Of a stretch of DNA of 64,000 bases, positions 1,677 through 3,554 are shown piece by piece. The DNA lies in NCBI RefSeq assembly GCF_000632225.1, contig NZ_JFYV01000054.1:1-64000 (forward strand), written 5' to 3'. Within the stretch, counting starts at the first letter, position 1, and every line of letters starts with the position of its first letter. Both the position numbers and the translations under genes were made by a program. Below the pieces are notes generated by a model that searched no databases, was not told the DNA's origin, and worked only from the letters and a program-made list of their open reading frames with translations. This DNA is from Sphingomonas sp. RIT328. GTDB taxonomy: Bacteria; Pseudomonadota; Alphaproteobacteria; Sphingomonadales; Sphingomonadaceae.

Positions 1677-2108
1677 ATGCAGGTTCCCCACAATGCGTTC
1701 GTGCTCGTCGCCGACGGCCGCAAGGCGTTGTTCTTCCGCAACGAGGGCGATGCCGATTATCCCAACCTCCGCGTCGAGCACGCCGAGGAAAAGGTCAATC
1801 CGGCCGACCGCGACCAGAAGACGGACGCCGCCGGCAGCGCCAGCTCGACGCAGATGGGCACGATGGAAGAGGTCGATTTCCATCAGCAGGAGGAAGACCG
1901 CTTCGCCGCCGACACCGCCGACATGCTCAAGCGCCGTGCGCTCGCCAATGATTTCGAGGCGCTGATCATCGTCGCGCCGCCGAAGACGCTCGGCGAATTG
2001 CGCAAACATTATCACAAGGAGGTAAGCAGCCGCCTTGCCGGGGAGCTCGCTAAGGATCTGACGGGTCATCCGGTGCCGGAGATCGAAAAGGCGCTCGGCG
2101 CCGCCTGA
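1677..2108 (+). CDS. Host attachment family protein (PF10116-like)
   Basis: A 143 aa cytosolic protein of the family named after an Agrobacterium gene reported to be required for attachment to host cells. The molecular activity is not settled, and the fold is related to bacterial eRF1-like (baeRF) proteins. Visible family marks are the N-terminal strand FVLVADGRKALFFRNEG, an acidic middle with paired Gln/Glu, and the C-terminal block LIIVAPPKTLGELRKHYH followed by an amphipathic helix and DLTGHPVPEIEKAL. There is no signal peptide or membrane segment. AGGAGATAGGTC precedes the ATG. It is a single gene, divergent from serS and followed by a strong terminator. Most free-living sphingomonads carry one, so the name should not be read as evidence of host association. 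Confidence 0.85.
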   Translation: MQVPHNAFVLVADGRKALFFRNEGDADYPNLRVEHAEEKVNPADRDQKTDAAGSASSTQMGTMEEVDFHQQEEDRFAADTADMLKRRALANDFEALIIVAPPKTLGELRKHYHKEVSSRLAGELAKDLTGHPVPEIEKALGAA

Positions 2109-2180: not shown

Positions 2181-3170
2181 TCAGGCCGCTCGCGGTTTGG
2201 CGAAGCGCTTGCGGGCGACCAGCGCCAGTGCGGCGGCACCGAACAGCAGCACCATCGGCGGGGCGGGCACCGGCGCGGGCGGCCCGCCCGACGACCCCGG
2301 CGGCCCCGGCGGCGGGCCGCCGTGATGGCCGCTCGACGTCCAGCCGCCGTTCGACGACCAACCGCCGCTGCTGCTCCATCCCTTCGAGCTCGACCCATAG
2401 TTGACCTGGCCCTGGCCCTGGCCCTGGTTTTGGCCCTGACCTTGGTTCTGGTTCTGGCCCTGGTTTTGACCCTGGTTCTGGCTCTGGTTGTTATTGTTGT
2501 TGTTGGTGTTCGTGTTGTTGCTCGAATTGTTGTTATTGTTCGTATTGTTGCTCGAGTTGTTGTTGGTGTTGTTGCTGGAATTGCTGTTGTCGATGTCGAC
2601 GGTGGCGCCGCCGGTCGACGAGGAGCTCGAAACATTGCCCGACGAGGAGGACGAGACGTTCCCCGAGGACGAGGACGAGGACGACGAGGAGACGTTGCCC
2701 GAGGACGAGGAGCTGCCCGACGACGAGCTGCTCGTCGATCCGCCGCTCGACGTCGAGGAGATGACGACGCTGCCGCTCGATCCCGACGATCCGCCGCCGA
2801 AGAAGCCGCCGCCAAAGCCACCGCCGAACCCGCCGCTAAAACCGCCGCTGCCGCCGACCACGACCGGCACACCGCCGCCGCCCCCGCCGACGAAGCCCTG
2901 CGCGGCGGGCAGCGGCACCGGGACCGGCGCGGCCTGACTGGCGAGCGTCACCACCGTCGGCGCGCAGCTCGTCGTCGTCGTGGTGACGACGCGGCGGCGC
3001 ACGCCGCGACGCTGCACCGATGCGACCTGCCGCTTGGCGACGACGCGCTTGACCTGCTTGACGTAGACGGGGCGGTTCGGCCGCTCGGCGACGTGCACGG
3101 CCCCGCCGCCGATCAACGCACCGCCGCATGCACAGGCGCATAATTTTGCCAGGGCCATCCTTACGGACAT
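2181..3170 (-). CDS. Low-complexity Ser/Asn/Gln-rich protein with PEP-CTERM-like C-terminal anchor
   Basis: A 329 aa protein. I chose the ATG at 3170 because AAAGAGA lies just upstream and the N-terminus MSVRMALAKLCACACGG begins a hydrophobic export-like segment. The same frame is open to 3356, but that extension has no membrane or domain signal. In order: basic, Val/Arg-rich stretch (31-62); Gly/Phe-rich stretch with GGF repeats (about 93-127); Ser-rich block with repeated GNVSSSSS units (128-186); Asn-rich block (195-228); QNQG and GQGQ repeats (229-255); SSGGW-type repeats (262-281); Pro/Gly linker; and a C-terminal PAPPMVLLFG hydrophobic helix (about 303-320) followed by RKR. The tail resembles PEP-CTERM sorting signals (Pro motif, single helix, basic end). 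I infer a secreted or surface-anchored structural protein. No catalytic domain is visible. Confidence 0.7.
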   Translation of the reverse strand: MSVRMALAKLCACACGGALIGGGAVHVAERPNRPVYVKQVKRVVAKRQVASVQRRGVRRRVVTTTTTSCAPTVVTLASQAAPVPVPLPAAQGFVGGGGGGVPVVVGGSGGFSGGFGGGFGGGFFGGGSSGSSGSVVISSTSSGGSTSSSSSGSSSSSGNVSSSSSSSSSGNVSSSSSGNVSSSSSTGGATVDIDNSNSSNNTNNNSSNNTNNNNNSSNNTNTNNNNNNQSQNQGQNQGQNQNQGQGQNQGQGQGQVNYGSSSKGWSSSGGWSSNGGWTSSGHHGGPPPGPPGSSGGPPAPVPAPPMVLLFGAAALALVARKRFAKPRAA

Positions 3171-3554
3171 AACGTCTCTTTCTCGTTGCCGGCGCGACGG
3201 GCCGGACATTCGCTCGCAACAGGGCGGTGCTGCCATAGGATCAAGCGCCGAACAAAGGATTAAGTGCAAGCGCGTTCGGCACCGGCGGCGTCCCATATCG
3301 CGATTCCGCGGCGGTCGCGCCGCGCCGATCGGCGTTAACGTGCCAGAGTGGAACACATGCCTGCGGTGCCGTTAACCGATCCGGTCGCGGTTCATCCTCG
3401 CGTCATCCTAAGTCCGTTATGGTGCAATAAAATAACGCTTGGACGTACGATTCGGCAACTCTGATCGCTTGTGGTTCGGGTTGGGCGCGATTATAGGCGC
3501 TTCAACCATTTGGGGGCGGCCCCGCGGTCTAGACCGGGCCGGAGGGAGAGTGGT
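3171..3554. other. Non-coding divergent region between the Gln/Asn-rich gene and dksA
   Basis: 384 bp without a supportable gene. It contains the Shine-Dalgarno of the minus-strand gene (near 3171-3185), two GTTAAC hexamers (near 3334 and 3371), an AT-rich patch around 3420-3440 and the putative dksA promoter. I could not identify a specific regulator site. Confidence 0.6.
3469..3496 (+). promoter_or_regulatory. Putative dksA promoter
   Basis: TTGTGG (3469-3474), a 16 bp spacer and TTATAG (3491-3496) fit a sigma-70-type promoter. Transcription would start near 3503, leaving a leader of about 50 nt before the dksA ATG. It is based on consensus matching only. Confidence 0.4.

Follow-up and report, generated by a model that had tools for sequence, protein, structure and literature searches.

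Introduction

In the PEP-CTERM/XrtA (EpsH) system (PMC1569441), a C-terminal tail of defined architecture occurs together with the exosortase XrtA, exopolysaccharide (EPS) genes and PrsK/PrsR, in single gene units, and the protein bodies are rich in Ser, Thr and Asn. The same paper names a genome, that of R. rubrum, with one PEP-CTERM gene; of the 167 PEP-CTERM genes from proteobacteria, 99 had a sigma-54 motif upstream, and all 13 species showed it (Haft 2006, PMC1569441). The Aquincola PEP-CTERM protein PepA (NF033554) is tied to EPS and the cell surface, is RpoN-dependent and has a part in forming flocs and in retaining EPS (PMC9850573), and the same floc/EPS role is stated for a Zoogloea PEP-CTERM protein in PMC12188702. 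Some genomes that encode rhombosortase have a single GlyGly-CTERM gene, and thus one enzyme and one client; 16 of 21 rhombosortase/GlyGly-CTERM pairs lie no more than one gene apart (PMC3237569). Finally, low-complexity N/Q-rich sequence is a feature of Q/N-rich prion domains and of bacterial prion candidates such as Clostridium Rho.

We analysed a gene of Sphingomonas sp. RIT328 (the source species) that shares features with each of these systems. It resembles the PEP-CTERM/XrtA system in its tail architecture, in the presence of XrtA with EPS genes and of PrsK/PrsR, in being a single gene unit and in the composition of the protein body. It differs from the proteins of PMC1569441 in that its tail reads VPAPP, not Pro-Glu-Pro, and its core is far more repetitive. 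Unlike the PEP-CTERM genes described there, and unlike the RpoN-dependent Aquincola pepA, it has no enriched sigma-54 site in the 400 nt upstream. Its tail matches that of NF033554 weakly (11.1 bits; cut-off 80) and its body not at all. Whereas rhombosortase and its client are mostly near neighbours, the XrtA gene lies 103 kb from the gene studied here. The N/Q-rich low complexity seen in the source species recalls the prion domains, but it is missing from most homologues, and the protein carries a surface-sorting tail. Our search of the open-access literature, with subscription papers outside it, found no description of a PEP-CTERM/exosortase system in Sphingomonas or Sphingomonadaceae.

Architecture of the 329-residue protein

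The gene lies in the first 64,000 nucleotides of contig NZ_JFYV01000054.1, the whole stretch of DNA analysed, which we call the window. Its features are as follows.

2181..3170 (-): CDS for a PEP-CTERM protein of low complexity (329 aa) that belongs to a sphingomonad family; ATG start, ORF 3170..2181
3247..3269 (-): upstream box TTGNNCTTAANNNTTTGTTNNGC, located 76 nt ahead of the start codon
3087..3170 (-): putative N-terminal targeting segment, residues 1–28, MSVRMALAKLCACACGGALIGGGAVHVA; basic residues, then hydrophobic Cys/Ala/Gly with GGxxxGGG
2895..3086 (-): residues 29–92; K/R-rich segment, then VTTTTTSCAPTVVT, then Pro-rich PVPVPLP
2781..2894 (-): Gly/Phe block, residues 93–130; 22 of 38 are Gly
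2601..2780 (-): Ser block with SSGNV units, residues 131–190; 37 of 60 are Ser
2409..2600 (-): Asn/Gln block, residues 191–254; 28 N and 13 Q in 64, varying between species
Residues 255–298: linker with three GW motifs
2184..2276 (-): PEP-CTERM-like tail, residues 299–329; APVPAPP, hydrophobic helix and RKR; TIGR02595; low-confidence AlphaFold helix 307–322

An earlier note, made from the DNA alone, had described Gly, Ser and Asn/Gln blocks and an end formed by a Pro motif, a hydrophobic helix and RKR within one 329 aa protein, and all of these are present at the coordinates above. The start codon is backed by homologues, in which alignment and codon-level conservation both begin at MSV[RK]. 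The Gly/Phe block is also supported by alignment A1, an author-chosen set of 28 of the 73 homologues described below. AlphaFold (28 sequences) returned a mean pLDDT of 48.7, with two helices and no strand in the core.

The Asn/Gln block stands apart from the surrounding coding sequence. The best 60-residue segment of the protein contains 41 N+Q, compared with 12 in the next ORF and a median of 6 among 87 ORFs (at least 100 aa, taken longest-first from contig bases 1–120000 with overlap below 30%; six-frame ORFs, not curated genes). The DNA beneath this block had been taken for a triplet repeat. That description fits loosely: the repeats found by Tandem Repeats Finder are imperfect, with units of 6–30 bp and 69–86% matches, and both amino acids use more than one codon (AAC 23, AAT 5, CAG 10 and CAA 3), so no uninterrupted triplet tract is present.

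The PEP-CTERM-like anchor proposed in the earlier note gained support from TIGR02595, with which a 51-residue tail peptide scored 17.3 bits against a cut-off of 16. The whole-genome scan gave 17.2 bits for the gene, and of the four matches in the genome at E values up to 10 it was alone above the cut-off; in an hmmscan of the full-length protein, TIGR02595 was not among the matches. The match stops at residue 44 of the 51, leaving seven residues, and fewer than 10 residues are left in 87% of PEP-CTERM proteins (PMC1569441). With Pfam PF07589 the tail scored 17.0 bits, below the cut-off of 20.7. We did not treat this shortfall as excluding a PEP-CTERM tail, because PF07589 recognised 22% of TIGR02595 matches (PMC1569441).

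No NCBIfam whole-protein model exceeded its cut-off for the 329 aa protein. The best was the MHFG family, NF038119, which matched the low-complexity part and the tail weakly (17.4 of the 100 bits needed), so that the protein is not a member; of 28 family members scanned, five touched NF038119, with a best E of 0.00088. A Pfam DDHD match (20.5 bits; cut-off 28.3) was taken as low-complexity noise. The N-terminal 28 residues, a putative targeting segment, are basic and then hydrophobic, and are unusually conserved; cleaved signal peptides are usually less conserved than this region. We also considered a lipoprotein reading of the Cys-rich start and set it aside by eye: Cys13 is present in 69 of 73 homologues, and the stretch preceding it seems too short.

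Conserved ends and a drifting core

Within the genus, 81 of the 101 genomes, including the source genome, matched the gene. From these we took 73 intact ORFs, omitting those of eight genomes (G017, G025, G046, G061, G064, G082, G087 and G093) that are frameshifted, degraded or cut by contig ends. The 73 were selected by the pattern MSV[RK][ML]A plus VPAPP, so that those letters are invariant by construction; apart from the remnant in G017, the pattern excluded no genus locus for missing letters. A diverged member starting MSIKL was found in G096 by profile search. In a sample of 385 genomes from across the class, for which the share of Sphingomonadaceae is not listed, the gene occurred in five, all of them in that family.

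Its surroundings are also kept. Among 78 named loci, which come mostly from Sphingomonas, Sphingobium, Sphingopyxis and other sphingomonads and include two unclassified Alphaproteobacteria metagenome-assembled genomes, the neighbours are dksA (76 loci), serS (72), pilZ (69) and baeRF/Host_attach (50), with the same order and strands as judged by eye. In the window, the baeRF family 12/Host_attach gene lies at 1677–2108 (+) and scores 183 bits. The nearest named tail is in a Sphingomonas melonis record, with 95% identity over residues 257–329. The records with loci L095 and L130 bear the names Arthrobacter sp. TPD3018 and Microvirga sp. SRT01, which are probably wrong, since each locus is of the sphingomonad type in the usual gene order.

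Both ends of the protein vary little. Among the N-terminal 28 positions, 14 have one residue in 72–73 of the 73 homologues and seven more in 64–71; the near-invariant sites use 2–6 synonymous codons each, Met excepted, and K9, L10, A18, G21, G22 and V25, which lie outside the selection pattern, are the same in 73 of 73. In the tail helix, L, F, G and A are likewise identical in all 73, with varied synonymous codons. Since residues remain fixed while synonymous codons vary, these data indicate that selection works at the protein level on both ends.

The core, in contrast to the ends, drifts in length and repeat type. Homologues range from 262 to 468 aa (n=73). In the K/R-rich segment, residues 29–80 carry a mean of 12.0 K+R against 1.6 D+E. 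The median Gly+Ser fraction of the core is 0.69, SSGNV, SSSGDV or SSGNI is found in 49 of the 73, and in every homologue at least 70% of the core is G, S, T, N, Q or A. The earlier note had named homologues without a low-complexity core as telling against its reading; there are none among the 73. In four of the 81 genomes (L080, L082, L084 and L085) the gene is frameshifted in the same stretch, codons ~70–95, where C runs measure 5–6 and those of intact copies 3–7; either sequencing error or slippage may account for this.

An ORF of such extreme low complexity, overlapped by ORFs on the opposite strand, could in principle be a spurious or decaying product of GC-rich repeats. We consider the chance of this negligible in view of the 73 intact homologues, the conservation of both ends despite synonymous change, and the retention of the neighbours and of an upstream box (see below). 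The gene belongs to a real, conserved PEP-CTERM family that lacks a whole-protein NCBIfam model.

Asn/Gln content among homologues

The earlier note had likened the protein to prions on account of its Asn/Gln content. For the protein itself the composition bears this out: with 41 N+Q in 60 residues it is Q/N-rich, and a PLAAC-style log-odds score reached 51.4 over 60 residues of the Asn/Gln block. The PLAAC-style and PAPA-style scores are re-implementations with hand-entered PLAAC frequencies and PAPA values. PAPA-style scores over the Asn/Gln block were 0.046–0.062, which is borderline against the PAPA threshold of 0.05, and the peak (0.184–0.194) fell over the Gly/Ser block near residue 128. 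PAPA-style maxima were 0.054–0.190 across all 73 homologues, N/Q-rich or not, so this score fails to single out the N/Q block.

Prion-like composition did not hold up as a property that defines the family. A segment with at least 20 N+Q in 60 residues is present in 15 of the 73 homologues, the source protein included, and missing from 58; a prion-like domain is therefore not kept among them. The closest row of a quick tree, G008, has no N/Q-rich segment. On this tree, which was built from DksA, PilZ and SerS pieces and has four long end branches and three rows covering less than half the columns, the N/Q label needs nine changes, eight of which are forced by starred branches. The label is nevertheless clustered (0 of 500 shuffles were as low), which suggests that it was inherited for a time and then lost or regained. 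On the 15 of 73 count and the eight forced changes we reject a prion as the conserved function.

These observations bear on the idea that the protein is a functional amyloid or prion-like adhesin, whose core forms extracellular fibres and whose PEP-CTERM tail merely delivers it. The idea draws on the excess of N+Q over the other 86 ORFs sampled, the PLAAC-style score and the PAPA-style maximum of 0.184 near residue 128. We judge it unlikely, given that the N/Q-rich segment is missing from most homologues and from the closest tree row, and that PAPA-style values are borderline over the block and similar throughout the family. The AlphaFold core also lacks strands, although a model of such low pLDDT is uninformative for amyloid. 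A prion or amyloid role in the source species is possible, but the data do not need it.

The upstream region

The box TTGNNCTTAANNNTTTGTTNNGC was found exactly in 39 of 73 upstream regions, 68–84 nt before the ATG, and 66 of the 73 contain it if up to three mismatches are allowed, whereas no order-0 shuffle gave fewer than four. In the window it has one match at up to two mismatches, against 0 expected, and in the first 120 kb of the contig one exact match. These features suggest that it is a probable promoter or operator. In the genus it is often preceded by GTTAA, and it is not sigma-54-like. A CtrA-like reading of its TTAA repeats seems less likely, as the spacing, judged by eye, misfits the CtrA consensus.

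We also looked for sigma-54 sites, which are frequent before PEP-CTERM genes without defining them, in the 400 nt upstream of the 73 homologues, using a hand-entered consensus. None had a site with at least 10 of the 12 consensus bases, and two had at least 9, compared with 3.3 in shuffles. Control of the gene by sigma-54 and PrsR was rejected for want of an enriched site in these regions.

Exosortase A in the source genome

A search for an exosortase gene, which had been proposed as a check on the anchor, succeeded. A single exosortase gene was identified with TIGR02602, about 106 kb into the contig (G000:C54:106090-107589). It scored 313 bits with TIGR03109 (exosortase A; cut-off 208), and it contains ACSG, NGIR and HIVYG, which correspond to the Cys, N-x-x-R and H-x-x-x-G motif types given in PMC1569441. 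The XrtA gene is on the same contig as the 329 aa protein gene.

The surroundings of XrtA are of the expected EPS type. Genes matching TIGR03006, TIGR03019, TIGR03087 and TIGR03108 (deacetylase, FemAB, glycosyltransferase and amidotransferase among the XrtA-type EPS genes) were all above their cut-offs. The ATPase, TIGR03015, scored 312.6 bits, slightly below its cut-off of 324.5, and TIGR03016 was far below cut-off in this neighbourhood. PrsR (658 bits; cut-off 502.6) and PrsK (434; cut-off 300) adjoin each other on another contig.

Co-occurrence with exosortases A and V

Counted without regard to shared ancestry, the 101 genomes of the genus comprised 78 with the gene and a strong exosortase (by EpsH match), three with the gene only, three with the exosortase only and 17 with neither. 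The corresponding numbers for 249 genomes of the family, likewise uncorrected for ancestry and with strong XrtA defined as E <1e-57 (164 genomes, 163 of them over cut-off), were 149, 5, 15 and 80.

The exceptions in the genus are partly accounted for. We repeated the search with a profile in eight genomes, namely the three with the exosortase only, G017 and four of the 17 with neither. This recovered the diverged member in G096, one of the three exosortase-only genomes; in the other two, G013 and G034, the gene was still absent. The gene-only genomes have the exosortase in broken pieces (G017), in two pieces (G048) or as a fragment at a contig end (G093). At the G017 locus (L087) a C-terminal remnant of the gene stands alone, and with the exosortase also broken, the two may have decayed together.

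Across the family, inspection by eye showed that within g22, g36, g44, g51, g54 and g80 the two genes are present together in some species and absent together from another. By the same inspection, other genera are out of step: certain species of g62, g76, g86 and g89 and all four of g6 have XrtA but lack the gene, and g35, g74 and g96 each include one species that has the gene but lacks XrtA. Four of the five gene-only genomes (G271, G334, G170 and G216) keep a VPAPP or IPAPP tail; the loci L174, L175 and L176 (G271, G334 and G170) have intact VPAPP tails and no XrtA match. As G271 and G334 are 99–100% complete, they count against strict pairing, and a strict client of XrtA should not keep its tail in such genomes.

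A second exosortase, XrtV, is over cut-off in 27 genomes of the genus, each with 8–61 TIGR02595 hits (E up to 0.3). Two more (G065 and G100), with XrtV just below cut-off and five and two hits, were kept apart (27 + 2 + 72). Among the 72 without XrtV, 70 have 0–5 hits, of which 38 have exactly one and 27 have 2–5; the remaining two, with 17 and 23 hits, are 84–85% complete. XrtV is over cut-off in each of the 17 genomes that lack both the gene and exosortase A. The genus thus seems to contain two exosortase systems, XrtV with many PEP-CTERM hits and a non-XrtV one with mostly few, and XrtA seems to serve few clients, with one in the source genome. Here "sole client" means sole by TIGR02595, because this 24-residue model gives no match in G010, G049 and G076 though the gene is present.

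These distributions also bear on whether the protein leaves the membrane at all. Both ends might be held in the inner membrane by uncleaved helices (GGxxxGGG and VPAPP), so that the protein is never released and acts as a periplasmic loop or an organiser of the EPS machinery. The near-invariant N-terminal segment with clustered glycines, the basic residues adjoining both hydrophobic segments and the five genomes in which the gene occurs but XrtA is not matched would all suit such an arrangement. It appears improbable, however, in that the tail resembles those processed by exosortases and the gene follows XrtA in its distribution.

Discussion

We consider it likely that the 329 aa protein is a dedicated XrtA client in sphingomonads, a disordered surface spacer that ties EPS to the cell or builds the matrix. 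In favour of a dedicated client, the gene tracks XrtA, it alone passes TIGR02595 in the source genome, and its neighbours are kept. Against a strict one stand the 103 kb separation and the 15 XrtA-only and five gene-only genomes of 249. This reading is supported directly by the sequence anatomy, the family, its conservation, the co-occurrence with XrtA and a single above-cut-off match to a PEP-CTERM model; export, cleavage, glycosylation and EPS tethering are the steps that we infer.

The conserved N-terminal segment would direct the chain into the Sec route, and the VPAPP-helix-RKR tail would halt it in the inner membrane with the motif at the outer face. XrtA may then cut at the motif and hand the protein to a lipid, sugar or EPS acceptor. 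The released chain, mostly uncharged Ser/Gly (with or without Asn/Gln) and probably glycosylated, would serve as a disordered spacer, either fastening the exopolysaccharide linked with XrtA to the cell or contributing to the matrix. What would count in this scheme are the two ends and the bulk composition, while core repeat type and length drift; the Asn/Gln block of the source species would be one among several interchangeable fillers. Sphingomonads probably place this protein on their surface via exosortase A, a sorting enzyme tied to polysaccharide production. The earlier proposal of a surface-exposed, self-assembling matrix or adhesion protein is plausible as regards a surface matrix protein.

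Many organisms carry many exosortase clients, which blurs genetics. To our knowledge, the chemistry that exosortases carry out on their clients, and the reason for their tie to exopolysaccharide, are still open. What looks unusual here is that exosortase A seems to be paired with a single client, whose low-complexity core drifts freely. It is conceivable, at somewhat short of even chances in our estimation, that many XrtA-only sphingomonads run such a minimal exosortase A system, with one enzyme, one client in a fixed neighbourhood and a core that behaves as a polymer-like spacer free to evolve. In that case one protein could reveal what exosortase A does chemically and what it is for, and the cores (Ser/Gly, SSGNV, Ala/Ser and Asn/Gln) would be low-complexity matrix polymers that nature has exchanged for one another on the same anchor. 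One recognised XrtA client per genome would permit a direct genetic test. The family also cautions against naming single N/Q-rich bacterial proteins prions: it amounts to a natural experiment in which selection keeps the address labels and the bulk, and not the repeat type or the N/Q content.
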